Part shown: one piece after another, positions 5,580-24,328 of the stretch
Position numbering within the stretch: position 1 is the stretch's first letter
Layout: each line of letters begins with the position of its first letter
From: Paracoccus marcusii
Lineage (GTDB): Bacteria; Pseudomonadota; Alphaproteobacteria; Rhodobacterales; Rhodobacteraceae
Direction: 5' to 3'
Length of the DNA: 33,231 nucleotides
Assembly: GCF_006151785.1 (NCBI RefSeq)
Contig: NZ_VDDD01000026.1
Span: 1-33,231, forward strand
The notes under the pieces: generated by a model
What the model saw: only the letters and a program-made list of their open reading frames with translations
Database searches by the model: none
What the model was told of the DNA's origin: nothing
Made by a program: the position numbers and the translations under genes

Positions 5580-5668
5580 GGAATGCCAGTGGGGGCGCCA
5601 TGCGGCCGGGGTTGCGGCGCGGCCTGCGGGGTGACAGGCTTTGCCCGAACGCCAGTCAGGAGGACCAG

Positions 5669-8047: not shown

Positions 8048-9930
8048 GGCATCTCCTTTACGGGGGCTGCCAGTGCGGCGGCCAGGCGCGGGGCCGTCAC
8101 GGGCTTGGTCAGCACCGGCCCCGGCGCGCGGGCGCGCAGCGGATCGCCCGGTGGCAGCGAGGTCATCATCACCAGGGGTACCGTCCCCGCCAGATCCAGT
8201 CCCAGCCCGTCGCCCAGCTGGATGTCCGACAGGATCACCTCCAACCCCGGCAGGTCCGTCAGGGCGCGGGCCTCCGACAGGGACGCGGCCTCGATCACCG
8301 CATGGCCCAGCCCGGTCAGCTCGTCGCGGACCTGAGCGCGGATCTGGTCGTCATCCTCGACCAGCAGCACCATCCGCCGCGCCACGGGCCGCCAAGGCAG
8401 GCGCAGCATCACCTGCGCGCCCCGTGGCCCGTTCGACAGGCGCATGGTGCCCCCGACCATCTTGGTCTGGTCATAGACCATCGACAGACCCAGACCCGAG
8501 CCCTGGCCCTTCTTGGTGGTGAAGAAGGGTTCAGTCGCGCGGGATAGGGCTTCGGGGGTGAAGCCGGGTCCGGTATCGCCCACCGTCAGTTCCAGCCAGT
8601 CGCCGCTGCGCCGCGCCTTCAGCGTGATGACGCCGGGTGGGGTGATCGCCGCATTGGCGTTCAGGATCAGGTTCAGCGCCGAATCCTGTAGCGCGCCGGG
8701 GTCCAAGAGTAGCTGTCCGAGCGGCAGGGCCAGGGCCAGGTCCAGCCGCGTCCCTTCGGACAGCGACGGGCGGGCCAGCACCGCCAGATCGGACAGCAAT
8801 GTCGGCAGGTCCGTCGGCTCCAGCGCGGGTTCGCGCGCGCCGGTGATCTGCGCCAGCCGGTCCAGAAGCGAGGCCCCGCGCCGGGCGGCCGCCAGCGTCG
8901 CTTGGACATCCTCGGCCGCGTCCGGTGGCAGGTCGCGGGCGGCCAGTCGGGCCTGCAGGCCCAGGATGATCGTCAGCAGGTTGCCGAAATCATGCGCCAT
9001 GCCGCTGGTCAGCTGGGCGGCCAGGTTGCGCCGCGCGGCATGGGCCAGCGCCTCTCGCGATTGGACCTCGGCGCTGACATCGGTGGATAGGATATAGACC
9101 CCCTGACCATCGCGGTCGGGCGTCAGCGCGATGCGGATGCGCCGGCCCGAGGTGGGGTGGGTGATCTCGAACACCTGCGGATCGCCCGCCAGCGCGCGCT
9201 CCATGAACGGGTGCAGGGTTCGCGCGGTGGCCGCCCCCAGGGCCTGTTCCAGCGTCAGCCCGACGATGTCGCCCTCGGCCCCCGGAAAGATCACCGGCAG
9301 CCGCCGGTTGGAGAAGGTATAGCGGAACTGCGCGTCCATATGCGCGATATGGGCCGGGACCATCTCGGTCACCTGGCGGGTACGGGCCTCGGTCCGGGTC
9401 AGGATACGCTGCGCTTCGGACAGGGCGGCGTTCGTCGCGGCCAGCTTGCGGTTCGCCGCCGCCAGCCGTTCGGCATTCAGCAGCACCTGTTCGGACAGCG
9501 CGTCCGACCGCGCCCGAAGTAGCGCTTCCTGACGCTTGATGTCGGTGATGTCGGTATAGACGGTGACCCAGCCCCCTTGCGACAGCGGTGCGCCCTCGAC
9601 CGCGACCCACCGGCCGTCGGCGCGTTCGCGTTCGAAGTAGTGGGGCTGGAACGTGCGGGCCTGGGCCACGCGCAGGGCGACGGCCTGTTCGGGGTCCTCG
9701 GTCGGGCCGTATTCGCCGCGCCGGGCCAGAAAGCGGATCGTGTCCTCGAAATGGCTGCCCGGCAGGGTCAGGTCGTCGGGCAGGTCGAACATCGTCTGGT
9801 ACTGCCGGTTGGCCACCGCCAGGCGCAGGTCCGCGTCGAAGATGGACAGCGCCTGGCCGATCAGGTTCAGCCCCGACCGGGTCAGGTCGGCGCGAATCTC
9901 GGCCCGCGTGACGGGGTCGGGGTGGTGCAT
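8044..9930 (-). CDS. Hybrid PAS-domain sensor histidine kinase with C-terminal receiver domain
   Basis: The 628-residue protein has no membrane segment and is probably cytoplasmic. In order: a PAS-type domain (about 20-132) with the rarely varied block GQALSIFDADLRLAVANRQYQ; a coiled coil (132-185); a second PAS domain (about 187-290); a HisKA region with His313 in SGMAHDFGNLLTIILG; an ATPase domain with N-box LNLILNANAAI (419-429), G1 DTGPGF (452-457) and G2 GQGSGLGLSM (475-484); and a receiver with Asp569 in LSDIQLGDG and Lys609. The start is ATG at 9930 behind GGAGGAGACCGCC; a longer frame to 10563 crosses the divergent promoter region and is rejected. It is followed at once by an OmpR-type regulator. 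The internal receiver may act as a phosphate sink or relay. The signal is unknown, perhaps the compound imported by the neighbouring transporter. Confidence 0.93.
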   Translation of the reverse strand: MHHPDPVTRAEIRADLTRSGLNLIGQALSIFDADLRLAVANRQYQTMFDLPDDLTLPGSHFEDTIRFLARRGEYGPTEDPEQAVALRVAQARTFQPHYFERERADGRWVAVEGAPLSQGGWVTVYTDITDIKRQEALLRARSDALSEQVLLNAERLAAANRKLAATNAALSEAQRILTRTEARTRQVTEMVPAHIAHMDAQFRYTFSNRRLPVIFPGAEGDIVGLTLEQALGAATARTLHPFMERALAGDPQVFEITHPTSGRRIRIALTPDRDGQGVYILSTDVSAEVQSREALAHAARRNLAAQLTSGMAHDFGNLLTIILGLQARLAARDLPPDAAEDVQATLAAARRGASLLDRLAQITGAREPALEPTDLPTLLSDLAVLARPSLSEGTRLDLALALPLGQLLLDPGALQDSALNLILNANAAITPPGVITLKARRSGDWLELTVGDTGPGFTPEALSRATEPFFTTKKGQGSGLGLSMVYDQTKMVGGTMRLSNGPRGAQVMLRLPWRPVARRMVLLVEDDDQIRAQVRDELTGLGHAVIEAASLSEARALTDLPGLEVILSDIQLGDGLGLDLAGTVPLVMMTSLPPGDPLRARAPGPVLTKPVTAPRLAAALAAPVKEMP

Positions 9931-9982
9931 GGCGGTCTCCTCCGCCCGTTGGCCTAGCACCGGTGTGCAGCGTGCGAAAGCG

Positions 9983-10101: not shown

Positions 10102-12078
10102 ATGACCGTTCAGCACACGCCCCCGGGCGATCTGCAATCCGTGCCCGCGCTGCTGGCGCGCAACGTCGCCCGCTTTGGCGACCGCCCCGCCTATCGCGAG
10201 AAGGAATACGGGATCTGGCAAAGCTGGACCTGGACCCAGGCCGCGGACGAGATCCGCGCCCTGGCGATGGGGCTGATGGCGCAGGGGCTGGCGCCGGGCG
10301 ATCACATGGCGATCATCGGGCGCAACCGTCCGGCGCATTACTGGGGCATGATCGCGGCGCAGATGTGCGGCGCGATCCCGGTGCCCCTGTACCAGGACGC
10401 CGTGGCCGAGGAGATGGCCTATGTCCTGGATCATTGCGGCGCGCGCTTCGTGCTGTGCGGCGATCAGGAGCAGGTCGACAAGGTGCTGGAGGTCGAGCAG
10501 ACCACCGGCGCGCGGGCCCGCATCATCTATACCGACGGGCGGGGCCTGAGGAAGTACGACCATGCCAACATGGCGTCGCTGGCCGACGTGCAGGCGCAGG
10601 GCCGGGCGGGGGCCGCGACCCTGGGGCAGCGGCTAGACGCGATCATCGCCGGGCTGGATTACGACAGCACCTGCGTGATGCTGTACACCAGCGGCACGAC
10701 GGGCAAGCCCAAGGGCGTGGTCCTGTCCAACCGAAACATCATCGAGACCGCTCGCAACACCGCCAATTTCGACCATCTGACCGAGGTCGAGGAGATCGTG
10801 GCCTATCTGCCGATGGCCTGGGTGGGCGACTTCATCTTTTCGATGGGCCAGGCGATGTGGTCGGGCTTCACCGTGAACTGCCCCGAGGGGGCGCACACGA
10901 TGATGACCGACATGCGCGAGATCGGCCCGACCTACTTCTTTGCCCCGCCCCGCGTCTTCGAAGGGCAGCTGACATCCGTGATGATCCGCATGGAAGATGC
11001 CAGCCGCCTGAAACGCTGGCTGTTCAAGCGCGGCATGGCGGTGGCGCATCGCGCGGGCCCGGCGCTCCTGGACGGCAAGACGGTCGGCTTGGGCGACAAG
11101 CTGGCCTATGCGCTGGGCAAGATCTTCGTCTTCGGCCCGCTGAAGAACACCCTGGGCCTGAGCCGCGTGCGCGTGGGCTATACCGCCGGAGAGGCGATCG
11201 GCCCCGAGATCTTCGATTTCTACCGCAGCCTGGGCATCAACCTGAAGCAGCTTTACGGCCAGACCGAGGCAAGCGTCTTCATCACCCAGCAGCCCGACGG
11301 GCAGGTGCGCTCTGACACGGTGGGCGTTCCCAGCCCCGGGGTCGAGGTCCGCATCGGAGAGAACGGCGAGGTCTATTACCGCAGCCCCGGCACCTTCGTC
11401 GAATATTACAAGAACGCCGACAGCACCGCATCGACCAAGGATGCCGAGGGCTGGGTCGCCACGGGCGACGCGGGCTTCTTCGAGGAGGGCAGCGGCCATC
11501 TGCGCATCATCGACCGCGCCAAGGACGTGGGCCGCATGGCCAGCGGCGCGATGTTCGCCCCCAAATATGTCGAGAACAAGCTGAAGTTCTATCCCAACAT
11601 CCTGGAGGCCGTGGTCATCGGCAACGGCCGCGACTTCTGTACCGCGATGATCAACATCGACCTGACCGCGGTCGGCAACTGGGCCGAACGCAACAACATC
11701 GCCTATGGCAGCTATCAGGAACTGGCCGGCCACCCGCAGGTCTATGAGACCATCCGCGGCCATGTCGAGGCGGTGAACGAATCCGTGGCGCAGGACCCGA
11801 TGCTGTCGGGCTGCCAGGTCCACCGCTTCCTGGTGCTGCACAAGGAGCTGGACCCCGACGACGGAGAGATGACCCGCACCCGCAAGGTCCGCCGCGCCGT
11901 CATCACCGAGAAGTTCCACGACCTGGTCACCGCGCTCTATGACGGATCGTCCAGCGTCCATACCCGGACCGAGGTCACCTACGAGGACGGCCGCAAGGGT
12001 GCGATCAGCGCGACCCTGCGCATCGAGGATGCCCGCGTCTTCGGCGACGCGGCCCGTCAGAAGGTAGCAGCCCAATGA
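10102..12078 (+). CDS. AMP-forming acyl-CoA synthetase (long-chain fatty acid-CoA ligase type)
   Basis: A 658-residue adenylate-forming enzyme that activates a carboxylic acid with ATP and then loads it on CoA. The phosphate loop TSGTTGKPKG lies at 196-205, followed by VAYLPMAWVGDF, the YGQTEASVF block that contacts the adenylate, and VATGDAGFF. The hinge reads DRAKDVGRMASGAMFAPKYVE rather than the usual GRxKExI version, and the C-terminus has TRTRKVRR with a candidate catalytic lysine. Length and layout match the FadD15/ACSBG-like group. The start is ATG at 10102 after AGGGAGG; an in-frame start at 10024 falls in the promoter region. It overlaps livG by four bases, so the ligase is the first gene of the transporter operon. 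It probably activates the imported substrate, which is not necessarily a long-chain acid. Confidence 0.9.
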   Translation: MTVQHTPPGDLQSVPALLARNVARFGDRPAYREKEYGIWQSWTWTQAADEIRALAMGLMAQGLAPGDHMAIIGRNRPAHYWGMIAAQMCGAIPVPLYQDAVAEEMAYVLDHCGARFVLCGDQEQVDKVLEVEQTTGARARIIYTDGRGLRKYDHANMASLADVQAQGRAGAATLGQRLDAIIAGLDYDSTCVMLYTSGTTGKPKGVVLSNRNIIETARNTANFDHLTEVEEIVAYLPMAWVGDFIFSMGQAMWSGFTVNCPEGAHTMMTDMREIGPTYFFAPPRVFEGQLTSVMIRMEDASRLKRWLFKRGMAVAHRAGPALLDGKTVGLGDKLAYALGKIFVFGPLKNTLGLSRVRVGYTAGEAIGPEIFDFYRSLGINLKQLYGQTEASVFITQQPDGQVRSDTVGVPSPGVEVRIGENGEVYYRSPGTFVEYYKNADSTASTKDAEGWVATGDAGFFEEGSGHLRIIDRAKDVGRMASGAMFAPKYVENKLKFYPNILEAVVIGNGRDFCTAMINIDLTAVGNWAERNNIAYGSYQELAGHPQVYETIRGHVEAVNESVAQDPMLSGCQVHRFLVLHKELDPDDGEMTRTRKVRRAVITEKFHDLVTALYDGSSSVHTRTEVTYEDGRKGAISATLRIEDARVFGDAARQKVAAQ

Positions 12079-12896
12079 ACGCGATGACCCAGGACGGCTA
12101 TGTGACCGCCGACGGCCGCCAGATCGGCCCCGTGGTGATGGAGCTGAAGAACATTACCCTGCGGTTCGGCGGCGTTGTCGCCATCAAGGACATCAGCTTC
12201 GACATCCGGCAGGGAGAGATCCGCGCGATCATCGGCCCGAACGGCGCGGGCAAGTCGTCGATGCTGAACATCATCTCGGGGTTCTACAACCCGCAGGAGG
12301 GGCAGGTCATCTTCAAGGGCCAGCCGCGCCCGGCGATGAAGCCCTATCAGGTCGCGCGCCTGGGCATCGCCCGCACCTTCCAGAACATCGCGCTGTTCGA
12401 CGGCATGTCGGTTCTGGACAACATCATGACCGGGCGCCTGAACAAGATGAAGACGGGCTTCCTGTCCCAGGCCCTGTGGTGGGGCGCGGCCGAGCGTGAG
12501 GAGAACGAGAACCGCGCCGTGGTCGAACGCATCATCGACTTCCTGGAGATCCAGAACATCCGCAAGACGCCCGTCGGCCGTCTGCCCTACGGCCTGAAGA
12601 AGCGGGTCGAGCTGGCCCGCGCGCTGGCGGCGGAACCGAACCTGCTGCTGCTGGACGAGCCGATGGCCGGCATGAACGTCGAGGAGAAGGAGGACATGTC
12701 CCGCTTCATCCTGTCGGTGAACGACGAGTTCGGCACCACGATCTGCCTGATCGAGCACGACATGGGCGTGGTCATGGACCTGTCCGACCGGGTGGTGGTG
12801 ATGGATTACGGCAAGAAGATCGGCGACGGCACCCCCGCCGAGGTGCGCAGCAACCAGGCGGTGATCGACGCCTATCTGGGGGTGGCCCATGACTGA
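12075..12896 (+). CDS. livG: Branched-chain-type ABC transporter ATP-binding protein (LivG-like)
   Basis: A 273-residue ATPase of the HAAT (Liv) class of importers. It has an N-terminal extension of about 20 residues, then VMELKNITLRFGGVVAI, Walker A GPNGAGKS at 54-61, ARTFQNIALF near the Q-loop, Walker B LLLLDEPMAG, and the switch histidine in CLIEHDM. The ABC signature is the divergent LPYGLKKRVELARAL in place of LSGGQ; LivG proteins often have a YGxQRR variant, but GLKKR departs further. The C-terminal GTPAEVRSNQAVIDAYLG is typical. It starts inside the ligase gene (ATGA at 12075-12078). It should pair with LivF (16453) on the cytoplasmic face of LivH/LivM. The gene symbol marks the family, not proof of amino acid transport. 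Confidence 0.93.
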   Translation: MNAMTQDGYVTADGRQIGPVVMELKNITLRFGGVVAIKDISFDIRQGEIRAIIGPNGAGKSSMLNIISGFYNPQEGQVIFKGQPRPAMKPYQVARLGIARTFQNIALFDGMSVLDNIMTGRLNKMKTGFLSQALWWGAAEREENENRAVVERIIDFLEIQNIRKTPVGRLPYGLKKRVELARALAAEPNLLLLDEPMAGMNVEEKEDMSRFILSVNDEFGTTICLIEHDMGVVMDLSDRVVVMDYGKKIGDGTPAEVRSNQAVIDAYLGVAHD

Positions 12897-12929: not shown

Positions 12930-13913
12930 ATGGACCAGCTGATCTTCGCCGCCGAGGTCGTGCTGAACGGCCTGATGACCGGAGTCATGTACGCGCTTGT
13001 GGCGCTGGGCTTCGTGCTCATCTTCAAGGCGTCCGGCGTCTTCAACTATGCCCAGGGGGTGCTGGCGCTGTTCGCGGCACTGACGCTGGTGGGCATCCAG
13101 AACGGCCAGGTGCCCTTCGCGCATCTGATCAACGCGGCCTTCGGCACCTCGCTGCACCATTTCGGCTGGACGGTCCCCGCGGTCCTGGCCGTGGCCCTGA
13201 CCGCACTGGTGATGGTCGGCCTGGCCTTCCTGATCGAGAAGCTGGTTCTGCAGCACCTGGTGGGACAGGAACCGATCATCCTCTTCATGGCGACCATCGG
13301 CCTTGCCTATTTCCTGGAGGGCCTGGGCGACGTGATGTGGGGCGCCGACATCAAGACGCTGGACGTTGGACTGCCACAGGGCATCTCGGACGGGATCGAG
13401 GCCGTCACCGCGCAATGGTTCGGCTATGGCTTCTTCATCGACCGGCTGGACCTGTGGGCCACGCTGATCGCGGCGATCCTGGTGGCCGCACTGGTGGCCT
13501 TCGCGCAATACACCAAGCAGGGCCGCGCCATGCGCGCCGTGGCCGACGACCACCAGGCGGCGATGTCCGTGGGCATCTCGCTGCGCTTCATCTGGGTGAT
13601 GGTCTGGTCGATCGCAGGTTTCGTGGCGCTGGTCGCGGGCATCATGTGGGGCACGAAATCGGGGGTGCAGTTCAGCCTGTCGCTGATCGCGCTCAAGGCG
13701 TTGCCGGTGCTGATGCTGGGGGGCTTCACTTCGATCCCCGGCGCCATCGTGGGCGGGCTGATCATCGGCGTGGGCGAGAAACTGTTCGAATTCACCATCG
13801 GCCCGATGGTCGGCGGCGCGACAGAGAACTGGTTCGCCTATGTCCTGGCGCTGATCTTCCTGGTGTTCCGGCCCCAGGGGCTGTTCGGCGAACGCATCAT
13901 CGAACGGGTGTGA
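12930..13913 (+). CDS. livH: Branched-chain-type ABC transporter permease (LivH-like)
   Basis: A 327-residue inner-membrane permease with about eight hydrophobic stretches. Family marks are SGVFNYAQGVLALF (35-48), TIGLAYFLEG (122-131), the cytoplasmic coupling loop GRAMRAVADDHQAAMSVGIS (198-217), LMLGGFTSIPGAIVGG (261-276) and the C-terminal VFRPQGLFGE (312-320). It forms the translocation channel with LivM. AAAGGA precedes the ATG by about ten bases, and 33 bases separate it from livG. A repeat element with a strong hairpin lies between its stop and livM, which may alter the relative expression of the two subunits. Confidence 0.93.
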   Translation: MDQLIFAAEVVLNGLMTGVMYALVALGFVLIFKASGVFNYAQGVLALFAALTLVGIQNGQVPFAHLINAAFGTSLHHFGWTVPAVLAVALTALVMVGLAFLIEKLVLQHLVGQEPIILFMATIGLAYFLEGLGDVMWGADIKTLDVGLPQGISDGIEAVTAQWFGYGFFIDRLDLWATLIAAILVAALVAFAQYTKQGRAMRAVADDHQAAMSVGISLRFIWVMVWSIAGFVALVAGIMWGTKSGVQFSLSLIALKALPVLMLGGFTSIPGAIVGGLIIGVGEKLFEFTIGPMVGGATENWFAYVLALIFLVFRPQGLFGERIIERV

Positions 13914-13992: not shown

Positions 13993-15069
13993 ATGATCTA
14001 TCGTGAGGCCGGCGACTTCAAGACCAGCTACCGCGACGACAGCCAGACCTTTCCGATCCGTCTGGACCGCTGGGGCTATTACGCGATCCTGGCCGTGGCC
14101 TTCGGGATCATTCCTTTCGTCATCAACGACTATTGGGCCAATGCGGTCCTGGTGCCCTTCCTGATCTATGCCATCGCCGCCCTGGGGCTGAACGTGCTGA
14201 CCGGCTATGCCGGCCAGGTCAGCCTGGGAACCGGCGGTTTCATGGCGGTGGGGGCCTATGCGGTCTACAAGCTGATGACGGCATTCCCGGATGTCAGCAT
14301 CGTCATCCACATCCTGCTGGCGGGCGGCATCACCGCCGGGGTGGGCGTCCTGTTCGGCCTGCCCAGCCTTCGGATCAAGGGCTTCTATCTGGCCGTCGCC
14401 ACGCTGGCCGCGCAGTTCTTCCTGGTCTGGCTGTTCAACAAGGTCCCGTGGTTCTACAACTATTCGGCCTCGGGCCAGATCACCGCGCCGACGCGCACGG
14501 TGTTCGACCAGGCGGTGACCGGCCCGGCCGCGACCGCGCCCGCGAAATACCTGATCTGCCTGGTCTTCGCCTTCGTGCTGGCCTGGGTCGCGCGCAACCT
14601 GACGCGCGGCAGCCTGGGGCGCAAGTGGATGGCCATCCGCGACATGGACATCGCGGCCGAGATCATCGGCGTGAACCCCCTGCGCGCGAAACTGTCGGCC
14701 TTTGCCGTCAGCAGCTTCTTCATCGGCATCGCCGGCGCGCTTCTGTTCGCGGTCTATCTGGGGGCTGCCGAGGTCGGCGAGGCCTTCGGCATCAACAAGA
14801 GCTTCCTTGTGCTGTTCATGATCATCATCGGCGGCCTGGGCAGCATCTTCGGCAGCTTTGCCGGCGCGGCCTTCCTGGTGCTGCTGCCGGTGCTGCTCAA
14901 GAACTTCCTGGTCGGCAACATGGGCTGGCCCACCGACCTGGCCGCCCATATCGAGCTGATGATCGTGGGCGCGCTGATCGTGACCTTCCTCATCGTCGAG
15001 CCGCACGGCCTGGCGCGCCTGTGGCGCCTGGCCAAGGACAAGCTGCGCCTGTGGCCGTTCCCGCATTAA
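13993..15069 (+). CDS. livM: Branched-chain-type ABC transporter permease (LivM-like)
   Basis: The 358-residue second permease subunit. After a hydrophilic N-terminus of about 27 residues come the hallmark GYAGQVSLGTGGFMAVGAY (71-89), PSLRIKGFYLAVATLAAQ (124-141), the coupling loop GRKWMAIRDMDIAAEIIGVN (about 209-228), FFIGIAGALLFAVYLG and IIGGLGSIFGSFAGAAFL. The C-terminus is IVEPHGLARLWRLAKDK. AAAGGA lies about nine bases before the ATG. The N-terminal extension and the 32-residue insertion around AVTGPAATAPAKY differ from classical LivM of amino acid systems, in line with a different substrate class. Confidence 0.93.
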   Translation: MIYREAGDFKTSYRDDSQTFPIRLDRWGYYAILAVAFGIIPFVINDYWANAVLVPFLIYAIAALGLNVLTGYAGQVSLGTGGFMAVGAYAVYKLMTAFPDVSIVIHILLAGGITAGVGVLFGLPSLRIKGFYLAVATLAAQFFLVWLFNKVPWFYNYSASGQITAPTRTVFDQAVTGPAATAPAKYLICLVFAFVLAWVARNLTRGSLGRKWMAIRDMDIAAEIIGVNPLRAKLSAFAVSSFFIGIAGALLFAVYLGAAEVGEAFGINKSFLVLFMIIIGGLGSIFGSFAGAAFLVLLPVLLKNFLVGNMGWPTDLAAHIELMIVGALIVTFLIVEPHGLARLWRLAKDKLRLWPFPH

Positions 15070-15116: not shown

Positions 15117-16397
15117 ATGAAACTGACCCTTGCCGCCCTGGCCACCACGATGATGGTCGCAAGCCCCGCACTGGCGGACCTGATCGTGCCGAACATGTCC
15201 TATCGGACCGGCCCCTATGCCGCGAACGGTATCCCCTATGCCGACGGCTTTGCCGATTACTTCACGCTGCTCAACGAACGCGACGGCGGCATCGGCGGCC
15301 AGCGCATCCAGGTCCCGGAATGCGAGACCGCCTACAACACCGAGAAGGGGGTCGAGTGCTATGAATCGCTGCGCACCCAGAACCCGCTGGTCCTGAATCC
15401 GCTGTCGACGGGCATCACCTATCAGCTGATCCCGCGGATCACCCAGGACGGCATCCCGCTCTACACGCCGGGCTATGGCCGCACCTCGGCCAAGGACGGC
15501 TCTGTCTTCGAATGGGTGTTCAACGCGCCGGCGAACTATTGGGACGGCGCCTCGGTCGCGGTCAAGCATATCCTGGACCAGGAGGGGGGCGACCTGTCCG
15601 GCAAGAAGATCGCGCTGGTCTATCACAACTCGGCCTATGGCAAGGAGCCGATCCGTACGCTGGAGGAGCTGTCCGAAAAGCACGGGTTCGAACTGAGCCT
15701 GCTGCCCGTGGACGCACCCGGCCAAGAGCAGAAGTCGCAATGGCTGCAGATTCGCCGCGACCGGCCCGATTACGTGATCATGTATGCCTGGGGCGTGATG
15801 AACCAGGTCGCCATCCAGGAGGCCGTGAACATCCGCTTCCCGATGGACAAGTTCATCGGCATCTGGTGGTCGGGCTCCGAGAACGACGTGCGCGCGGCGG
15901 GGGCCGGGGCCGAGGGCTACAAAGCGCTGACCTTCCACGGCGTGGGCCGCGACTATCCGCTGTACGAGGACCTGCAGACGCATGTCTATGACAAGGGTCT
16001 GGCGGCCGGTGCGGGCGATCAGGCGGGCAGCGTTCTCTATTCGCGCGGCGCCTATGCGGCGCTGGTGATCGCCGAGGCCATCGCCAAGGCGCAGGAGCTG
16101 GCCGGCACCCCCGAGATCACGCCCGCGCAGATGCGCGACGGCTTCGAGGCGCTGGACATCACCGCCGAGCGCATGGCTGAGCTGGGCCTGCCCGATTTCG
16201 GCGCGCCCATCGCGCTGTCCTGTCAGAACCACGGCGGCGACGGCCTGGCCCGCGTGCAGCAGTGGAACGCCGCCGAGGGGACGTGGTCGCTGATCACCGA
16301 CTTCATCGAGCCGGATGCCGAGATCCTGGACCCGCTGATCAAGGAAGACAGCGCCGCCTATGCCGCCGAGGCGGGCCTGACCGCGCGCTGCAACTGA
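15117..16397 (+). CDS. livK: Periplasmic substrate-binding protein of a branched-chain-type ABC transporter (LivK-like)
   Basis: The 426-residue protein has a Sec signal peptide, MKLTLAALATTMMVASPALA, with likely cleavage after residue 20. The mature part is a Peripla_BP_6-type fold: NMSYRTGPYAANGIPYADGF at the N-terminus, the block KKIALVYHNSAYGKEPI, and the hinge-side WGVMNQVAIQEAVNIRFP. The start ATG at 15117 follows GGGAGGAGA; a longer open frame upstream lies inside livM in another phase and is not coding. At about 400 mature residues it is larger than classical LivK/LivJ and resembles binding proteins found next to acyl-CoA ligases. It should set transporter specificity, but I cannot read the ligand. 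A strong hairpin follows its stop codon. Confidence 0.93.
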   Translation: MKLTLAALATTMMVASPALADLIVPNMSYRTGPYAANGIPYADGFADYFTLLNERDGGIGGQRIQVPECETAYNTEKGVECYESLRTQNPLVLNPLSTGITYQLIPRITQDGIPLYTPGYGRTSAKDGSVFEWVFNAPANYWDGASVAVKHILDQEGGDLSGKKIALVYHNSAYGKEPIRTLEELSEKHGFELSLLPVDAPGQEQKSQWLQIRRDRPDYVIMYAWGVMNQVAIQEAVNIRFPMDKFIGIWWSGSENDVRAAGAGAEGYKALTFHGVGRDYPLYEDLQTHVYDKGLAAGAGDQAGSVLYSRGAYAALVIAEAIAKAQELAGTPEITPAQMRDGFEALDITAERMAELGLPDFGAPIALSCQNHGGDGLARVQQWNAAEGTWSLITDFIEPDAEILDPLIKEDSAAYAAEAGLTARCN

Positions 16398-16452: not shown

Positions 16453-17274
16453 ATGTTCGATACCCGCACCCAAGAGACGCTGCTGGACGTCAACAACATC
16501 GAGGTGATCTACAACCACGTCATCCTGGTCCTGAAGGGCGTCAGCCTGACGGTGCCCAAGGGCGGCATCACCGCACTGCTGGGCGGCAACGGGGCGGGCA
16601 AGACCACGACGCTCAAGGCGATCTCGAACCTGCTGGCCAGCGAGCGGGGCGAGGTGACCAAGGGGTCGATCACCTATCAGGGCGACGACATCACCGCGCT
16701 GGACCCGGCCGCCCTGGTGCGGCGCGGCGTCATCCAGGTGATGGAGGGCCGCCACTGCTTCGAGCACCTGACGGTGGAGGAGAACCTGCTGACCGGCGCC
16801 TATACCCGCCGCGACGGATCGGCCGCCATCAAGCGCGACCTGGAGATGGTCTATGACTATTTCCCGCGCCTGCGCGAGCGGCGCAAGAGCCAGGCGGGAT
16901 ACACCTCGGGCGGCGAACAGCAGATGACCGCGATGGGTCGCGCGCTGATGTCGCGCCCGCAGATGATCCTCTTGGACGAGCCGTCGATGGGCCTGGCCCC
17001 GCAGCTGGTCGAGCAGATCTTCCAGATCGTCAAGGCCGTGAACGAGGGCGAGGGGGTCACCTTTCTTCTGGCCGAGCAGAACACCAACGTCGCGCTGCGC
17101 TATGCCCATCAGGGCTACATCCTGGAAAACGGGCGCGTCGTGATGGAGGGTCCGGCCGCGCAGCTGCGCGAGAACCCGGACGTCAAGGAATTCTACCTGG
17201 GCATGTCGGACGAGGGGCGCAAGTCCTTCCGCGAGGTGCGCAGCTATCGCCGGCGCAAGCGCTGGCTGGCCTGA
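16453..17274 (+). CDS. livF: Branched-chain-type ABC transporter ATP-binding protein (LivF-like)
   Basis: The 273-residue second ATPase of the importer. Walker A is GGNGAGKT at 44-51, the signature TSGGEQQM is close to canonical, Walker B is MILLDEPSMGLAP, and the switch region reads LLAEQNTNVALR, as in LivF. The usual VPEGR-like strand appears as VIQVMEGRHCF. A C-terminal basic extension of about 25 residues (SFREVRSYRRRKRWLA) goes beyond standard LivF proteins of about 235-245 residues. AAGGGGA precedes the ATG. The next gene begins 10 bases after its stop, so the PaaK-like gene is in the same operon. Confidence 0.93.
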   Translation: MFDTRTQETLLDVNNIEVIYNHVILVLKGVSLTVPKGGITALLGGNGAGKTTTLKAISNLLASERGEVTKGSITYQGDDITALDPAALVRRGVIQVMEGRHCFEHLTVEENLLTGAYTRRDGSAAIKRDLEMVYDYFPRLRERRKSQAGYTSGGEQQMTAMGRALMSRPQMILLDEPSMGLAPQLVEQIFQIVKAVNEGEGVTFLLAEQNTNVALRYAHQGYILENGRVVMEGPAAQLRENPDVKEFYLGMSDEGRKSFREVRSYRRRKRWLA

Positions 17275-17284
17275 GGGGGTCATC

Positions 17285-18499
17285 ATGGGATATTACGACG
17301 ATCTGGAAACGCGCGACGAGGGTCAGCGCGCCGAGGCGCTGGCCCAGGCCCTGCCGCTGGCGCTGAGCCGCGCCAAGCTGGCCCCCGCGATGGCGCGCCT
17401 TCTGCGCGACGTGGAGCCGGAGGTGGTGACCGACCACGCCGCGCTGGCCCGCCTGCCGGTGATCCGCAAGGCCGAGCTGTCCGAGGCGCAGCGCAAGCAG
17501 CCCCCCTTCGGCGGCTATACCACCCGCCCCGCCGCGCAGTTCGACCACATCTTTCAAAGCCCCGGCCCGATCTATGAACCCGGTCGGCGCGACGGCGACT
17601 GGTGGCGGCTTGGCCGCTTCCTGCATGCCGCGGGCGTGGGGCAGGGCGACATCGTCCAGAACTGCTTCGGCTATCACCTGACGCCTGCCGGGATGATGTT
17701 CGAATCAGGCGCGCGGGCCGTCGATGCGGCGGTCCTGCCCGCCGGCACCGGGCAGACAGAACTGCAGGTGCGCGCGGCCGTCGACATCGGCACGACCTGC
17801 TATGCCGGCACGCCCGATTTCCTCAAGGTGATCCTGGACCGTGCCGACGAGATGGGCGAGGTGCTGTCCTTCACCAAGGCCGTGGTGGGCGGCGGCGCGC
17901 TGTTCCCGTCGCTGCGCCAGATGTATGCCGACCGGGGGATCGTCACGCGGCAATGCTATGCCACCGCCGATCTGGGTAACATCGCCTATGAGAGCGAGGC
18001 GATGGAGGGAATGATCGTGGACGAGGGTGTGATCGTCGAGATCGTGCGCCCCGGCACCGGCGATCCGGTTCCCGACGGCGAGGTCGGCGAAGTGCTGGTG
18101 ACCACGCTGAACCCGGATTATCCGCTGGTTCGTTTCGCGACGGGTGACCTGTCTGCGGTCCTTGCAGGTACCAGTCCTTGTGGTCGCACCAACATGCGCA
18201 TCAAGGGGTGGATGGGGCGCGCCGATCAGACGACAAAGATCAAGGGCATGTTCGTGCGCCCCGAACAGGTGGCAGCCCTGGTCGCGCGCCATGCGGACGT
18301 GTCCCGCGCCCGCGTGATCGCCGATCGTCGCGGAGAGATGGACGTGATGACCGTCCAGCTGGAAACTGCGGGTCAGGGGGGCGACTATGCCGCATCCGTC
18401 ATGGACACGCTGAAGCTGCGCGGCGACATCGAACTGGTGGCACCGGGCAGCCTGCCCAATGATGGCAAGGTCATCGAGGATCGCCGCAGCTATGAATAG
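17285..18499 (+). CDS. PaaK-like adenylate-forming protein (phenylacetate-CoA ligase family) with atypical P-loop
   Basis: The 404-residue protein resembles the PaaK family, which turns aryl acids into CoA thioesters. It keeps the PaaK-style CYATADLGNIAYE (224-236), RFATGDLSAV (283-292), GRADQTTKIKGMFVRPEQV (311-329) and Lys395 in NDGKVIEDRR, matching the C-terminal catalytic-lysine block. Where PaaK has the phosphate-binding SSGTTGxPT, this protein reads QSPGPIYEPG (91-100), so the Ser/Thr/Gly loop is missing. It may use a different ATP contact, act with the first ligase, or not be a ligase. It is also shorter than PaaK (about 430-440). It begins 10 bases after livF, behind GAGGGGG, and ends the operon. 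The substrate is unknown. Confidence 0.8.
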   Translation: MGYYDDLETRDEGQRAEALAQALPLALSRAKLAPAMARLLRDVEPEVVTDHAALARLPVIRKAELSEAQRKQPPFGGYTTRPAAQFDHIFQSPGPIYEPGRRDGDWWRLGRFLHAAGVGQGDIVQNCFGYHLTPAGMMFESGARAVDAAVLPAGTGQTELQVRAAVDIGTTCYAGTPDFLKVILDRADEMGEVLSFTKAVVGGGALFPSLRQMYADRGIVTRQCYATADLGNIAYESEAMEGMIVDEGVIVEIVRPGTGDPVPDGEVGEVLVTTLNPDYPLVRFATGDLSAVLAGTSPCGRTNMRIKGWMGRADQTTKIKGMFVRPEQVAALVARHADVSRARVIADRRGEMDVMTVQLETAGQGGDYAASVMDTLKLRGDIELVAPGSLPNDGKVIEDRRSYE

Positions 18500-18578: not shown

Positions 18579-19355
18579 ATGGCTGCGGGCAAGGGGCTGA
18601 ACGGGCCGTCCATCATCATCAAGCGCGTCGAGGCGTCGTCCGACGGCGGCCACCACGGCGGCGCGTGGAAGGTCGCCTATGCGGATTTCGTGACCGCGAT
18701 GATGGCGTTCTTCCTGCTGATGTGGCTGCTAAACGCCACCACCGAGGAGCAGAAGACCGGTCTGGCCGACTACTTCGCACCGACGGTGATCCAGACGCCG
18801 AACGCCACCACCAGCGGCGGCGGCGACGGGACCGAGGACGGCGTCCGTCACGCGGTCGAGGCGCCGCTGCCCGACAGCGACAGTGCAGGCGACTTCGAGG
18901 AGGTCGCCCGCGCCGTCCAGGACAGCCTGACCGGCACGGGCGCCGAATCGTCCCAGCTGACCAACCTGCTGCAGCATGTCGTGACCCGCATGACCGACGA
19001 AGGGTTGGTGATCGAGCTGGGCGATCTGACCGACGCCCCCCTGTTCGTCGAGGACACCGCCCAGCCCCAGCCCGCCCTGTCCGAACTGATGGGAATCATC
19101 GCGCGGGTCATCCGGCATGTCAGGAACGATGTGGCGATCTCGGGCCATGTGCGCGCCTATCCCGAAACCCTGGTCGCGTCGCCGGTCTGGCCGCTGTCGG
19201 ATGCCCGGGCGCATACGGTGCGCAACCTGCTGGAACAGCAGGGTTTCGACGGCAAGCGCGTGCAGCGGGTCAGCGGCTATGCGGACCGCAAGAACCGGCA
19301 GGGCAACCCGATGGACCCGCTGAACAACCGGATAGAGCTGATTTTACTCAGGTAG
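18579..19355 (+). CDS. motB: Flagellar motor stator protein MotB
   Basis: MotB anchors the proton-conducting stator to peptidoglycan. In this 258-residue protein one membrane segment (about 30-53) reads WKVAYADFVTAMMAFFLLMWLLNA, with the proton-carrying Asp at 36. A flexible linker (about 55-120) precedes the OmpA-like peptidoglycan-binding domain, which has AISGHVRAYP, LSDARAHTVRNLLEQQG and the terminal NNRIELILL. GAAGGA lies about nine bases before the ATG. Its partner motA is not in the window, so stator subunits are encoded apart. It heads the plus-strand flagellar run motB-flgE-flgK-flgL-flgI, with 76 bases and a separate candidate CtrA site before flgE. Confidence 0.95.
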   Translation: MAAGKGLNGPSIIIKRVEASSDGGHHGGAWKVAYADFVTAMMAFFLLMWLLNATTEEQKTGLADYFAPTVIQTPNATTSGGGDGTEDGVRHAVEAPLPDSDSAGDFEEVARAVQDSLTGTGAESSQLTNLLQHVVTRMTDEGLVIELGDLTDAPLFVEDTAQPQPALSELMGIIARVIRHVRNDVAISGHVRAYPETLVASPVWPLSDARAHTVRNLLEQQGFDGKRVQRVSGYADRKNRQGNPMDPLNNRIELILLR

Positions 19356-19364
19356 CCGTCGCGG

Positions 19365-19379
19365 TTAGCCTTATCTTAA
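19365..19379 (+). promoter_or_regulatory. CtrA-type box upstream of flgE
   Basis: TTAGCCTTATCTTAA matches the CtrA consensus TTAA-N7-TTAA with one mismatch (G for A in the first half). It lies 53-67 bases before the flgE start, in one of the few AT-richer intergenic spots. CtrA controls flagellar genes in many alphaproteobacteria including Rhodobacterales, so the position is sensible. Confidence 0.5.
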
Positions 19380-19431
19380 GCGTTCACGGGCAGTGTGACG
19401 GACAAGACCGAAATCAGAAGGGTGTCTGTCC

Positions 19432-20730
19432 ATGTCCATCTCCTCTGCGATGAATGCCGGCGTGTCCGGCCTTGCCGCGAACTCGTCGCGGCTGGGAACC
19501 ATCTCGGACAATATCGCGAACGCATCGACCTTCGGGTACAAGCGCGTCGAGACCGACTTCAATGCGCTGGTCGTGGGGCAGGGGGCGGGCCTTTACACCG
19601 CAGGTGGCGTTCGCGCGTCCACGACGCGATCGGTGTCGCAGGACGGTGCGATCGTGACCACCTCGAATGCGCTGGATCTTGCGATGACCGGGCGGGGCAT
19701 GCTGCCCGTGACGACCCTGAACGATGCAACCGGTGGGGGGACGCCGTCGCTGATGATGACGCGGACCGGTGCGTTCCGTCCCGATGCGGGCGGCTTGCTG
19801 CGCACCGAAAGCGGGCTGGTGCTGATGGGCTGGCCCACGGCCGCGGACGGTAGCATGCCGCTTGTCGCGCGCGACACGTCGGCCGCACTGCAGCCGATCC
19901 GCATCGAATCGAACCGCCCTGTCGGGGATCCGACGACGCAGGTGTCGCTTGGCGCCAACCTACCCGCAACAGAGACCCTGCCCACCGGCTCGGGCGACCC
20001 GCTGCCGCTGCGCGTCGAGTATTTCGGCAACCTGGGAACCTCGGAATCGCTGGACATCACCTTCACGCCCGACACCAGCGATCCAACCGGCATGTCGAAC
20101 ACCTGGACGGTCAGCATCAGCGACAGTGCCAGTGATCCCGCAGCCAACCCGATCTCAACCTTCCAGGTGACGTTCGACGACAGCCAGGGGGCGGGCGGCG
20201 CGCTGCTGAACGTCGTCGGCGGCGGCTATGATCCGGCAACCGGTGCGATCCCGCTGACCGTCGGGGGCGGCAACATAGAGCTTTCCATCGGCGTGCCGGG
20301 CGGGGCCTCGGGCCTGAAGCAGCTGGCGGCCAGCTTCTCTCCGTCGAACGTGGTCAAGAACGGCTCTCCGGTGGGGCAGCTGGTCGCGGTCGAGGTTGAC
20401 CCGCAGGGCTATGTCAAGGCGACCTACGACACCGGTTTCGTCAAGGCGCTGTACAAGATCCCCGTCATCGACGTCCCGAATCCCAACGGCCTGGTGGCGG
20501 TCGAGGGGCAGGCCTTCAAGACATCGCCCGATTCTGGCGGTTTCTTCCTGTGGGATGCGGGCGACGGGCCGACGGGCGCCATCGCCGGCTATGCCCGCGA
20601 GGCGTCGACCACAGACATCGCGCAGGAACTGACACATCTGATCACCACGCAACGCGCCTATTCGTCGAACGCCAAGATCATCCAGACGGTCGACGAGATG
20701 CTGCAGGAAACCACGAACATCAAGCGCTGA
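19432..20730 (+). CDS. flgE: Flagellar hook protein FlgE
   Basis: The 432-residue subunit of the extracellular hook, the universal joint between rod and filament, exported by the flagellar type III system. The N-terminal rod/hook helix has SSAMNAGVSGLAANSSRLG and SDNIANASTFGYKR, the family signature. The middle (about 80-330) is a variable Thr/Ser/Gly-rich domain. The C-terminus carries GFVKALYKIPV, then AYSSNAKIIQTVDEMLQETTNI, the closing coiled-coil segment. CAGAAGG stands upstream of the ATG. No signal peptide is expected. flgK follows after 36 bases. Confidence 0.95.
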   Translation: MSISSAMNAGVSGLAANSSRLGTISDNIANASTFGYKRVETDFNALVVGQGAGLYTAGGVRASTTRSVSQDGAIVTTSNALDLAMTGRGMLPVTTLNDATGGGTPSLMMTRTGAFRPDAGGLLRTESGLVLMGWPTAADGSMPLVARDTSAALQPIRIESNRPVGDPTTQVSLGANLPATETLPTGSGDPLPLRVEYFGNLGTSESLDITFTPDTSDPTGMSNTWTVSISDSASDPAANPISTFQVTFDDSQGAGGALLNVVGGGYDPATGAIPLTVGGGNIELSIGVPGGASGLKQLAASFSPSNVVKNGSPVGQLVAVEVDPQGYVKATYDTGFVKALYKIPVIDVPNPNGLVAVEGQAFKTSPDSGGFFLWDAGDGPTGAIAGYAREASTTDIAQELTHLITTQRAYSSNAKIIQTVDEMLQETTNIKR

Positions 20731-20766
20731 TCCGCCCCGCAGGGGATCGGGTGAAGGAGGCCGGAC

Positions 20767-22212
20767 ATGAGCATTGCCAAGGCGATATCGAACGCGATGT
20801 CGGGGCTGACTGCCACCGCGCGCGGCACCGAAACGGTGGCGTCGAACATCGCCAACGTCATGACGCCCGGTTATGCCCGGCGCGACATGGTGGTGTCCGC
20901 CCAACTGCACGGCGGGGGCGTGCGCATCGACGGCATCACTAGGATCGTCAATTCCAGCCTGCTCTCCGAATCGCGCCTGGCGGCCTCGTCCGTCGGTGAC
21001 GGCGCCGCACGCGCGTCGTTTCACCGGTCGATGGAAAAGGTCATCGGTCTTCCCGGAGAGGCGCATTCCCTGTCGGGTGCGCTGACCGATTTCCAGGCCG
21101 CGCTCAGCAGTGCGGCGACGCGGCCCGATGACGAGATCCGCCTGTCGCAGGTCGTCAGCACGGCCTCGGCGCTGGCGGACCGGCTGAACGCGGCGTCGAC
21201 CGCGGTTCAGGGCGCGCGCAGCGCCGCGCAGCAGGGCATCGCGTCCGACGTGGCGACGGTGAACGCCTCGCTGGAGCGGGTGGCCTATCTGAATGCGCGC
21301 ATCTCCATCCTGGATTCCGACGGCAAGGATGCCACCCCGTTGATGGACGAACGCCAGCAGGTGATCGACCGCATCGCAAGCATCATTCCCATCCAGGAGG
21401 TCGCGCGCGACTCGGGCAAGGTCGCCCTGTTCAGCGCCGAGGGGGCGGTGCTGCTGGATGGCAGCGTGCCGGCCCGGCTGGGATTCTCAGGCGCGGATCA
21501 GGTGACCGCGGGCCAGGTCGTTGGCGCACCCCTGGAACTGCTGACCCTGAACGGGACGCCGGTTACCGCAGCGCAGATGCGCCTGTTCGGCGGCGGGTCC
21601 TTGGCCGCCAACTTCCAGATTCGCGATCAGCTGGCCCCGCAGATGCAGTCGGAACTGGACGACTTGGCCTTTGACCTGCACCAGCGTTTGGTCGATCCCG
21701 CCGTTGATCCGTCCCTCGGGGCTGCCGATGCCGGGCTGTTCACCGACGGCGGTGCGCGCGCGACCGCGGCGACGGTCGTTGGCCTGTCCGGTCGGATCGC
21801 GCTGAATGCGACGGTCGATCCGGGACAGGGGGGCCAGCTGTGGCGCCTGAGGTCGGGCCTGCAGGCGGCGAACGGCGAACCGACGGGCCAATCCGCGATT
21901 CTTTCGGCGCTGGTCCAGGCACTGGACGCGCCGCGCCCGGCGCAGGCGGGCAGCGGCTTCGAGGGGAACGGCACGCTGACCGTCCGGTTCGGATCGGTCG
22001 AGTCGCGGGTGTCGACGCGGCGCGTCGAGGCCGAGGCCGACCTGACCATCCGCAGCAGCCGCCAGTCGACCATCGCCTCCAGCCTGATGGCCGAGGGCGT
22101 GGACAGCGACGCCGAGATGCAACGCCTGCTGCAATACGAACAGTCCTATGCCGCCAATGCCCGCGTGCTGGTCGCCGTGGACGAGATGATCAACCAGATC
22201 CTGAGGATGTAG
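20767..22212 (+). CDS. flgK: Flagellar hook-filament junction protein FlgK
   Basis: FlgK (HAP1) is the first junction layer between hook and filament. The 481-residue protein starts with SIAKAISNAMSGLTATARGTETVASNIANVMTPGYARRD, the typical N-terminal signature. In the middle it has an ATPLMDERQQVIDRIASIIP block, which matches the DxRDxLxxxL region of FlgK. It ends with YEQSYAANARVLVAVDEMINQILRM. GAAGGAGG lies upstream of the ATG. It is only three bases from the flgL start, so the two junction proteins are co-translated. The variable D2/D3 part is shorter than in enterobacterial FlgK (about 545 residues). Confidence 0.94.
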   Translation: MSIAKAISNAMSGLTATARGTETVASNIANVMTPGYARRDMVVSAQLHGGGVRIDGITRIVNSSLLSESRLAASSVGDGAARASFHRSMEKVIGLPGEAHSLSGALTDFQAALSSAATRPDDEIRLSQVVSTASALADRLNAASTAVQGARSAAQQGIASDVATVNASLERVAYLNARISILDSDGKDATPLMDERQQVIDRIASIIPIQEVARDSGKVALFSAEGAVLLDGSVPARLGFSGADQVTAGQVVGAPLELLTLNGTPVTAAQMRLFGGGSLAANFQIRDQLAPQMQSELDDLAFDLHQRLVDPAVDPSLGAADAGLFTDGGARATAATVVGLSGRIALNATVDPGQGGQLWRLRSGLQAANGEPTGQSAILSALVQALDAPRPAQAGSGFEGNGTLTVRFGSVESRVSTRRVEAEADLTIRSSRQSTIASSLMAEGVDSDAEMQRLLQYEQSYAANARVLVAVDEMINQILRM

Positions 22213-22214
22213 CC

Positions 22215-23228
22215 GTGACCCTGAACAGTATCGGTGACCAAGCCCGCGCCTATGCGCTGCAGGTCGCCTCGAACCGGATCAAGACGACCCTGTCCACCCT
22301 GACCCAGGAGGTCGCGTCCGGGCAGGTCGCGGATGTGGGCCAGCGCGTTGGCGGCAACACCCGCGCCCTGAACGAGATCGAAGGCCGCATCCAGCTGGCC
22401 GGGCAGTTGCGCCAGAACGGTCAGGATGCGGGCATCCGGCTGCAGGCGGTGCAGGACATGTTCGACGCCGTCCGGCTCAGCACGACGGAGCTGGGCCTGG
22501 CCCTGGCCACCGACCCGTTCAACGACCAGGCCCTGCTGGGGACACGGTCGACAGAAGTGGCCAATGCGTTCGATTCGGTGATCCAGAGGCTGAACGGCAC
22601 GAACAGCAACCGGTACCTTTTGTCCGGAGAGGCATCAGACGTGGCCCCCCTGTCGGACGCGACCAGCATCCTGGACAGCCTGCAGGCCATCGTCGCGCCG
22701 CTGACCACGGCCGCAGACGTCGCCCAAGCGGTGTCCGACTGGTTCGACGCTCCGGCCGGGGGCGGCGGGTTTCTGGACACGGCCTATCACGGGACCCTTG
22801 GCCAGCCGCAGCGGATCACCGTCGGAGAGGGAGTCTCGGTCGAGATGCAGACGACCGGTGCGTCCGGCCCGGTGCGCGACCTGCTGAAGGGCCTGGCGAC
22901 CGCAGCCATCCTGGACCGCGGTATCCTGGCGGGCAACGTGGCCGAGCGGAGGGAGCTGTTGTCCACGGGCGGCACCCTGATGGTCGCCGCGGACAGCGCC
23001 GTTCTGGGAGAGATGGGGCGTGTGGGCCTTGCCCAGCAGACCGTCGAGCGCGCGCAGGTCACCGGGACCTCGACCCTGAACACGCTGGAACGGGCCCGCG
23101 GCGACATCCGCAGCGCCGACCCGTTCGAGACGGCAGCAGCCCTGACCGAAGTGCAAAGCCAGCTGGAATCTCTCTATGCGGTCCAGGCGCGGCTGGCGAA
23201 CCTCAACCTGGTGGATTTCCTGCGATGA
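22215..23228 (+). CDS. flgL: Flagellar hook-filament junction protein FlgL
   Basis: FlgL (HAP3) is the second junction layer and contacts flagellin. The start is GTG at 22215, two bases after the flgK stop and behind GAGGATG; the in-frame extension to 21840 overlaps flgK almost entirely and is rejected. The 337-residue protein has a flagellin-like N-terminal helix (SIGDQARAYALQVASNRIKT, LTQEVASGQVAD) and a C-terminal helix (FETAAALTEVQSQLESLYAVQARLANLNLVDFL). The central LNGTNSNRYLLSGEASD resembles the flagellin fold. The stop overlaps the flgI start as ATGA at 23225-23228. Confidence 0.92.
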   Translation: MTLNSIGDQARAYALQVASNRIKTTLSTLTQEVASGQVADVGQRVGGNTRALNEIEGRIQLAGQLRQNGQDAGIRLQAVQDMFDAVRLSTTELGLALATDPFNDQALLGTRSTEVANAFDSVIQRLNGTNSNRYLLSGEASDVAPLSDATSILDSLQAIVAPLTTAADVAQAVSDWFDAPAGGGGFLDTAYHGTLGQPQRITVGEGVSVEMQTTGASGPVRDLLKGLATAAILDRGILAGNVAERRELLSTGGTLMVAADSAVLGEMGRVGLAQQTVERAQVTGTSTLNTLERARGDIRSADPFETAAALTEVQSQLESLYAVQARLANLNLVDFLR

Positions 23229-24328
23229 AGACAGTTCTGCAAGCACTGATCCTGTGGATGGCCGTGGCGACCTCGGCCCTGGCTGTGCCCGTGCGCATCA
23301 AGGATCTGGCCGATTTCGACGGCGTACGGGGCAACGACCTGGTCGGCTATGGGCTTGTCGTCGGCTTGGACGGGTCGGGCGACGGCATGCGCAATGCCCC
23401 CTTCACCGAAGAGATGCTGGCCGGCCTGCTGGAACGGCTTGGGGTGAACGTCACCGATGACGCCCTGAGGTCCAAGAACGTGGCGGCGGTGATCGTGACG
23501 GCCACCCTGCCGCCCTTTGCGCGGTCGGGCAGCAGGATCGACGTGAGCGTCTCTGCGATCGGCGACGCGAAAAGCCTGCTGGGCGGTACGCTGGTGATGA
23601 CCCCGCTGAAGGCCGCGGATGGCAACATCTATGCCGTGGCCCAGGGATCGATCATCGCGGGCGGGGTCGCGGCGCAGGGCGACGCGGCCCGCGTGGTCGA
23701 AGGTGTGCCCACCACCGGAAGCATCCCGGTGGGCGCCCGGGTCGAGCGCGAGGTAGAGTTCGATTTCGCCGGCATCGACGACATCCGCATCGCGCTGCGC
23801 AATGCCGACTTCACCACCGCCACGCGGGTCGAGGACGCGATCAACCGCGACTTCAACCGCCAGCTGGCAGTCACGCTGGACAGCGGCACGGTCGTCGTGA
23901 ACTTCCGCGGCCTGGGCGACGTGAACCCCGCTCGCGTCGTCGGCCGGATCGAGAACCTGCTGATCGAACCCGAAGACCGGGCCAAGGTCGTGATCGACCA
24001 CAAGTCCGGGACGATCGTGGTGGGCGAACGCGTGCGCATTTCCCGGGTGGCGGTGTCGCAGGGCAACCTGACCCTGCGCGTGGCCGAGGCACCGCTGGTA
24101 TCCCAGCCCAACCCCTTTGCCGCTGGAGAGACAGTGACCGTGCCCCGCACCGCCGTCGACGTGAACCAGGAACCCGGCATCGGCTTTGTGGAGGTGGCCG
24201 GAGAGACCAACCTGTCGGATCTTGTCGACGGTCTGAATGCCTTGGGTGTGCGGCCTCGCGACATGATCGACATCCTGAAGTCGATCCATTCGGCAGGTGC
24301 CCTGCACGCGGACCTGATCGTCGAATAG
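23225..24328 (+). CDS. flgI: Flagellar P-ring protein FlgI
   Basis: FlgI forms the periplasmic P-ring bushing around the rod. The 367-residue precursor has a Sec signal peptide (MKTVLQALILWMAVATSALA, cleavage near residue 20). The mature part begins VRIKDLADFDGVRGNDLVGYGLVVGLDGSGD, the diagnostic FlgI opening. Further blocks are NVAAVIVTATLPPFARSGSRIDVSVSAIGDAKSLLGGTLVMTPL and IDHKSGTIVVGERVRIS near residue 260. The C-terminal DLVDGLNALGVRPRDMIDILKSIHSAGALHADLIVE is standard. Its chaperone FlgA is encoded on the other strand at 26657. The gene converges with a glycosyltransferase gene, with three bases between the stops. Confidence 0.97.
   Translation: MKTVLQALILWMAVATSALAVPVRIKDLADFDGVRGNDLVGYGLVVGLDGSGDGMRNAPFTEEMLAGLLERLGVNVTDDALRSKNVAAVIVTATLPPFARSGSRIDVSVSAIGDAKSLLGGTLVMTPLKAADGNIYAVAQGSIIAGGVAAQGDAARVVEGVPTTGSIPVGARVEREVEFDFAGIDDIRIALRNADFTTATRVEDAINRDFNRQLAVTLDSGTVVVNFRGLGDVNPARVVGRIENLLIEPEDRAKVVIDHKSGTIVVGERVRISRVAVSQGNLTLRVAEAPLVSQPNPFAAGETVTVPRTAVDVNQEPGIGFVEVAGETNLSDLVDGLNALGVRPRDMIDILKSIHSAGALHADLIVE

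Follow-up and report, generated by a model that had tools for sequence, protein, structure and literature searches.

The window, the whole 33,231-nucleotide stretch of Paracoccus marcusii DNA that was analysed (NZ_VDDD01000026.1, positions 1 to 33,231), carries an importer operon that begins with an acyl-CoA ligase gene and ends with the gene for a PaaK-fold protein. On the forward strand the genes follow one another in the order FadD-like ligase, LivG, LivH, LivM, substrate-binding protein, LivF and PaaKL. The first encodes a FadD-like acyl-CoA ligase of 658 aa (10102..12078; PF00501, 1e-69) with an intact A3 loop (TSGTTGKPKG) and an intact A10 lysine. It is followed by a LivG-type ABC ATPase (12075..12896), two permeases matching PF02653, of LivH type (12930..13913) and LivM type (13993..15069), a Peripla_BP_6 substrate-binding protein with a putative start (15150..16397), whose nearest solved relative by sequence is 4ru0, and a LivF-type ABC ATPase (16453..17274), the stop codon of which lies 10 bp upstream of the last gene. 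This last gene (17285..18499), recognised as an open reading frame and by phmmer matches to PaaK structures, encodes a 404-aa PaaK-fold protein without a P-loop, which we call PaaKL. Its nearest named relatives share 80–97% identity with it. A search of the Paracoccus genome (3.67 Mb in 297 contigs, 99.99% complete) returned neither a second PaaKL match nor a true PaaK at E ≤ 1e-3, and hence no true PaaK was detected there.

Directly downstream of PaaKL, and on the same strand, a MotB-like gene starting at 18579 opens a flagellar set (18579-24328) that also includes an FlgEFG-type rod/hook protein (19432), FlgK (20767) and FlgI (23225). On the reverse strand a PAS sensor histidine kinase with a putative start (8044-9936; PAS_7 and HATPase_c, with a receiver domain below the cut-off) overlaps the gene of an OmpR-type response regulator (7346-8047), and the pair (7346-9936) is divergent from the FadD-Liv operon, of which it may be the regulator. 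A homologue of the PAS kinase occurs in 55 of the 111 subfamily loci longer than 9 kb. Upstream of the kinase lies an aldehyde dehydrogenase gene on the forward strand (5600-7111; PF00171, 2.1e-148), a homologue of which was seen in 1 of the same 111 loci, their flanks being mostly too short to reach it.

Relatives of PaaKL were collected within the Pseudomonadota from two sources. In a sample of 398 genomes, 102 had matches at E ≤ 1e-20; the subfamily was defined by scores of 363 bits or more, with a wide gap to the next among the matches listed (186 bits), and on this definition it is present in 67 of the 398 genomes, the Paracoccus genome included. A contig scan for relatives of PaaKL contributed 80 loci, the best 80 of 593. 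Pooling both sources gave 147 subfamily loci, which collapsed to 144 distinct proteins, PaaKL among them. For comparison, 16 PaaK rows were hand-picked from 21 PaaK-like rows outside the subfamily and its deeper clade, with L150, L154, L159, L168 and L169 excluded as odd. The tree left out L001, L003 (which stops short of the A10 region) and any row at least 86% identical to a retained one; it is a quick tree, in which 48 of 124 inner branches are weak.

Fold and known relatives

The AF2 model of PaaKL (pLDDT 88.5, pTM 0.86) predicts a PaaK-type fold. Its N-terminal part alone fits PaaK-type ligases well, and over the whole chain the deviation from them is mostly 9.5–11.2 Å. PaaK1 (2y27_A) was aligned over 368 residues with Z 33.8 and an rmsd of 10.6 Å (VIA), presumably because the two domains are differently placed in the model. 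The 2-hydroxyisobutyryl-CoA ligase HCL (6hdw, 6hdx, 6he0) has the same PaaK-type fold and matches PaaKL in sequence at E 4.2e-22. Its 6hdx structure fits with Z 33.7 and 2.2 Å over 314 residues of the N-terminal part, and 6he0, in the thioesterification state, fits with 2.8 Å over 319 residues, which is barely beyond that part. The entry titles show that the HCL structures contain its acyl-adenylate and CoA, i.e. HCL adenylates. The top match to PaaKL among PDB sequences is the putative acyl-CoA ligase BT_0428 (4r1l, 4rvo; E 6.6e-33), which was compared by sequence and fold and shares the fold at 23–26% identity in structure alignments.

In profile searches PaaKL stays below the gathering scores of both Pfam domains concerned (PF00501, 23.1 against 29.9; PF14535, 16.8 against 25), although of the 80 members of set A1 all have a PF00501 hit at E ≤ 0.01 (1e-10 at best) and 71 a PF14535 hit. 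PaaKL has the fold, the A7 and A8 blocks and the hinge residues in common with PaaK (PaaK1, 2y27/2y4n; PaaK2, 2y4o; TIGR02155), but differs from it in the replaced P-loop, the unconserved A10 lysine, the change of the A5 Glu to Asp and the Liv/FadD neighbours. Membership of PaaK itself was ruled out, since PaaKL scores 106.9 bits against NCBIfam TIGR02155, for which the curated cut-off is 646.3, and the SPG loop described below is found in 144/144 subfamily proteins. The FadD-like ligase of the operon belongs to the ANL superfamily, the fold of which PaaKL shares, and lies in the same cluster, but it is a protein of 658 aa in which A3 and A10 are intact.

The phosphate loop and the other active-site blocks

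At the site of the A3 phosphate loop PaaKL reads QSPGPIYEPG (residues 91-100; 17555..17584, forward strand). A phmmer search against PDB sequences pairs IFQSPGPIYEP with IHASSGTTGKP, the P-loop block of PaaK1 (2y27), and the sequence on either side is also in register; thus SPGPIYEP occupies the place of SSGTTGKP in PaaK. The AF2 model places a hairpin there, with strands at 88-92 and 96-100, but its pLDDT is 76 for residues 91-100 and 68 for residues 101-110. Neither a canonical A3 pattern, nor a loose A3 pattern, nor a Walker loop pattern matched anywhere in the PaaKL chain, and the canonical A3 pattern was found in 0 of the 144 distinct subfamily proteins. By the same pattern check, 19 of the 23 other PaaK-like rows fetched have a canonical-like loop; the remaining four are two deeper-clade rows (SPGP), L150 (SSGTTSQP) and L159 (TPTSTGLMP). 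The last of these, a PaaK-like protein (G339:C1:137800-155600), does not belong to the subfamily and sits at the end of a very long branch.

The replacement is itself strongly conserved. Ser92, Pro93 and Gly94 are invariant in all 144 proteins, and Pro95 is kept in 141 and Ile96 in 143. At position 97, 143 proteins have Tyr, Phe or His. An acidic residue, Glu or Asp, occupies position 98 in every subfamily protein, where 14 of the 16 PaaK rows have Lys and the other two Arg. Pro93 and Pro95 stand at the positions of the PaaK Ser and Thr, and proline at two loop positions removes two backbone NH groups. A further search, at class level and with a deeper-clade protein as query (385 genomes, 102 matching), gave SPG in 30/30 loci, these being the best 30 of the 102 and including the locus of PaaKL itself and three genomes already sampled; together with its presence in 144/144 proteins, this means that the motif is not due to chance. 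On a tree of 127 rows that was built without the loop and A10 columns, the SPG state requires one change. The preliminary description of this DNA had proposed that the phosphate loop is lost at residues 91-100, had named a normal loop elsewhere in the chain as the finding that would speak against it, and had suggested checking whether homologues beside the same transporter have SPGPIYEP; the alignment to PaaK1 and the conservation bear out the loss, the pattern scan found no second loop, and the motif is indeed conserved beside the transporter.

The blocks that follow the loop have fared unequally. In the A7 block RFATGD (residues 283-288; 18131..18148, forward strand) the ribose-site Asp288 is invariant, and so are Arg312, the hinge Asp314 and Gly321 in the A8 hinge GRADQTTKIKG (residues 311-321; 18215..18247, forward strand), each in 144/144; these four residues are invariant in subfamily and PaaK alike. 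The A5 block YATAD (residues 225-229, in the context CYATAD; 17957..17971, forward strand) has Asp in place of the PaaK Glu, with Asp in 140 and Glu in 4 of 144 subfamily proteins and Glu in 16/16 PaaK rows. Lys395 (codon 18467..18469, forward strand) corresponds by alignment to the A10 lysine of PaaK, which is Lys in all 16 hand-picked rows; in the 143 aligned subfamily proteins the residue is K in 98, L in 34, V in 5, R in 3, I in 2 and M in 1, and the tree requires at least 18 changes between K and other residues among 105 subfamily rows. Hence position 395 is under little constraint, and Lys395 was ruled out as a retained catalytic feature. The earlier remark that the later blocks remain thus holds for CYATAD, RFATGD and GRAD, and is misleading for Lys395.

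In class I enzymes the phosphate loop and the A10 lysine serve the adenylation step. To judge from the sequence, the parts lost would be those that hold the triphosphate and drive adenylation, and the parts kept would be the ribose site and the hinge. Because of this role of the loop and the lysine, and because published loop mutants are reported to lose most activity (PMC8388817, PMC6122825), we infer that PaaKL probably does not adenylate. An altered first half-reaction, as initially suggested, correctly reflects the missing loop but understates the case; outright loss is likelier than alteration, since the A10 lysine is free to vary and A5 is Asp in 140/144. The gene is nevertheless not decaying: dN/dS of PaaKL against six Paracoccus relatives is 0.11-0.15, compared with 0.13-0.22 for FadD and 0.07-0.17 for LivF, which indicates purifying selection. 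Loss of catalytic motifs under purifying selection, which PaaKL shows, is one of the features expected of a pseudoenzyme.

Pairing with the FadD ligase and the Liv importer

In the 398 genomes, a search with FadD gave 70 genomes at E ≤ 1e-90, and those at E ≤ 2.4e-129, 67 in number, coincide exactly with the genomes that contain the subfamily, the cut-off that gives this exact agreement having been chosen after the list of 70 was seen. The 67 genomes span 15 family codes, and at the chosen cut-offs both genomes with the two genes and genomes with neither occur within family codes f1, f2, f8 and f10. The arrangement of the genes is also well kept. Upstream sequence of at least 7.8 kb was available for 106 distinct loci, and in 101 of them FadD, LivG, LivH, LivM and LivF lie on the same strand as the PaaKL homologue; the substrate-binding protein was found in 89 of these 101 loci with the Paracoccus query and in the other 12 with the Azospirillum one. 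Of the 5 others, one (L114) has the cluster in divergent orientation, and four (L117, L131, L139, L141) have no FadD/Liv cluster nearby. The genomes of these four carry FadD, LivGHM, the substrate-binding protein and LivF together elsewhere (L215, L213, L214 and L216), although the match to the substrate-binding protein in L216 is weak (51 bits). Persistence of the pairing in genomes where the genes are no longer linked points to a common task. The suggestion of a partner role to the 10102-12078 ligase has therefore gained strong indirect support, from the identical 67/67 genome sets and from co-occurrence despite broken linkage. The partner FadDs keep TSGTT in 102/102 and the A10 lysine in 100/100 aligned proteins; at the final Gly of TSGTTG, 10 of the 102 have Ser and 3 have Ala.

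The co-occurrence reflects shared descent in part, and since Fisher's test on the genome sets takes no account of relatedness, no probability is given for it. Moreover, the genomes G070, G138 and G174, which share a genus code, lack the subfamily and have a FadD of 36% identity within a Liv cluster, and thus a system of the kind formed by Liv and a distant FadD can work without the PaaKL subfamily. One of the three carries a deeper-clade copy (L148) beside another FadD/Liv set.

This deeper clade, at 33–38% identity, keeps SPGP; its hinge Asp is gone (GRVG or GRIG), and the A10 lysine is absent wherever the region aligns. Of its five widely flanked copies, four (L148, L149, L208 and L209, not L177) sit with FadD/Liv-type genes. 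The loop replacement is therefore not confined to the core subfamily, and in most cases its gene neighbours are of the same kind. The copies of Sulfitobacter (L208) and Pseudosulfitobacter (L209) are on plasmids, in long catabolic islands with acyl-CoA dehydrogenases, hydratases, a thiolase paired with an OB-fold protein, CaiB transferases and biotin carboxylase, together with Liv-type transporter genes and AMP-binding proteins; from this gene content the islands are probably devoted to acyl-CoA degradation. In Roseibium the copy is part of an island of this type too, but neither Liv nor FadD genes occur within 10 kb of it.

The neighbours of named copies give some indication of the substrate. 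In Xanthobacter Py2 (L175, pXAUT01) and Roseovarius THAF8 (L171, pTHAF8_b) the cluster adjoins genes for a TetR regulator, a B12-binding subunit, an acyl-CoA mutase and MeaB, and this B12 acyl-CoA mutase beside two named relatives of PaaKL is a further likeness to HCL. We take the Xanthobacter enzyme to be pivalyl-CoA mutase. The Azospirillum copy adjoins leucine-degradation-type genes (isovaleryl-CoA dehydrogenase, carboxylase and HMG-CoA lyase). These neighbourhoods hint at branched or quaternary short acids as the substrate. The Xanthobacter mutase query matched in 1 of the 111 distinct subfamily loci longer than 9 kb, and weakly (29%, 173 bits); the count is a weak test, since the Roseovarius mutase lies ∼9-11 kb upstream and most loci reach only 8.4-9 kb.

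Possible roles of PaaKL

We favour a product-binding, non-catalytic partner over an enzyme of the second half-reaction and over a divergent true ligase: PaaKL would be a non-adenylating pseudo-ligase that serves the Liv importer and the FadD ligase as an accessory, a proposal that we think stands an even chance of being right. The importer probably carries a carboxylic acid, and the Liv-type importer and the FadD-type ligase would together take it up and trap it as a CoA thioester. PaaKL, having kept the AMP-ribose site and the hinge, would no longer form an acyl-adenylate from ATP and would act as a dedicated accessory of this importer-ligase system. It would most likely bind the nucleotide-containing product of the pathway, i.e. 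acyl-AMP, AMP or acyl-CoA, and may use the bound product to tune the partner ligase or the importer ATPases. Strict invariance of the ribose Asp, the Arg and the hinge is more than would be required of a plain scaffold, and is compatible with a catalyst as well. Against the accessory reading stands the observation that residue 395 is still Lys in 98/143 proteins, PaaKL included.

More tentatively, a PaaK-fold family without ATP activation might be either a product sensor or a second-half enzyme that couples a Liv carboxylate importer to a ligase. In that case the coupling could amount to a switch, gated by acyl-adenylate or acyl-CoA, for import with metabolic trapping.

The second-half enzyme taken by itself is doubtful. 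Such an enzyme would use the AMP site and the hinge to transfer the acyl group from FadD-made acyl-adenylate to CoA, or for acyl-CoA exchange. The thioester-forming step of the superfamily needs the A7 Asp, the A8 Arg, the hinge Asp and the Gly321 elements, all of which are invariant here; an intact ligase is always present alongside in the 67 genomes, and some relatives sit among CoA-thioester enzymes. However, ANL enzymes normally retain acyl-AMP and do not release it, the FadD partner has full machinery of its own, and the hinge Asp is lost in the deeper clade.

It is unlikely that PaaKL is an ordinary ATP-dependent acyl-CoA ligase whose phosphate loop has diverged. The fold and several motifs are intact, Lys395 is present in PaaKL and in the majority of its relatives, and one of the nearest structures is that of HCL, a PaaK-type ligase acting on a branched short acid, all of which such a ligase would explain. 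This reading is difficult to reconcile with the two prolines of the loop, the fixed acidic residue at the Lys/Arg site, the change of A5 from Glu to Asp and the activity lost by the published loop mutants; moreover, the A10 lysine has been lost repeatedly while the remainder is kept. Finally, the idea that the gene is a pseudogene, either decaying or misread, or that the alignment is an artefact and the true loop lies elsewhere, is highly improbable and was ruled out, as it has nothing in its favour beyond the motif loss itself, and it is contradicted by the open frame, the dN/dS, the same replacement in 144/144 proteins, the tree, the in-register alignment with a hairpin modelled at the site, and the lack of any other A3-like loop.

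The records from which these proteins are known suggest another function. Among the plasmid records (40 of 68 listed), subfamily copies carry the name ‘putative phenylacetate-CoA ligase’ or ‘AMP-binding protein’, or have no gene entry at all; for deeper-clade copies the usual annotation is ‘phenylacetate--CoA ligase family protein’ or ‘hypothetical protein’. Such names imply a ligase of aromatic acids, which the PaaKL subfamily probably is not. PMC4103551 lists a Roseobacter litoralis protein under the name ‘phenylacetate-CoA ligase, putative’. We found no description of the PaaKL subfamily in the literature within the scope of the search, which most subscription papers lie beyond. If PaaKL is a non-adenylating partner, it would offer a tractable case of carboxylic acid import coupled to CoA activation, and it is the tight pairing with an intact ligase that makes the partner role tractable.
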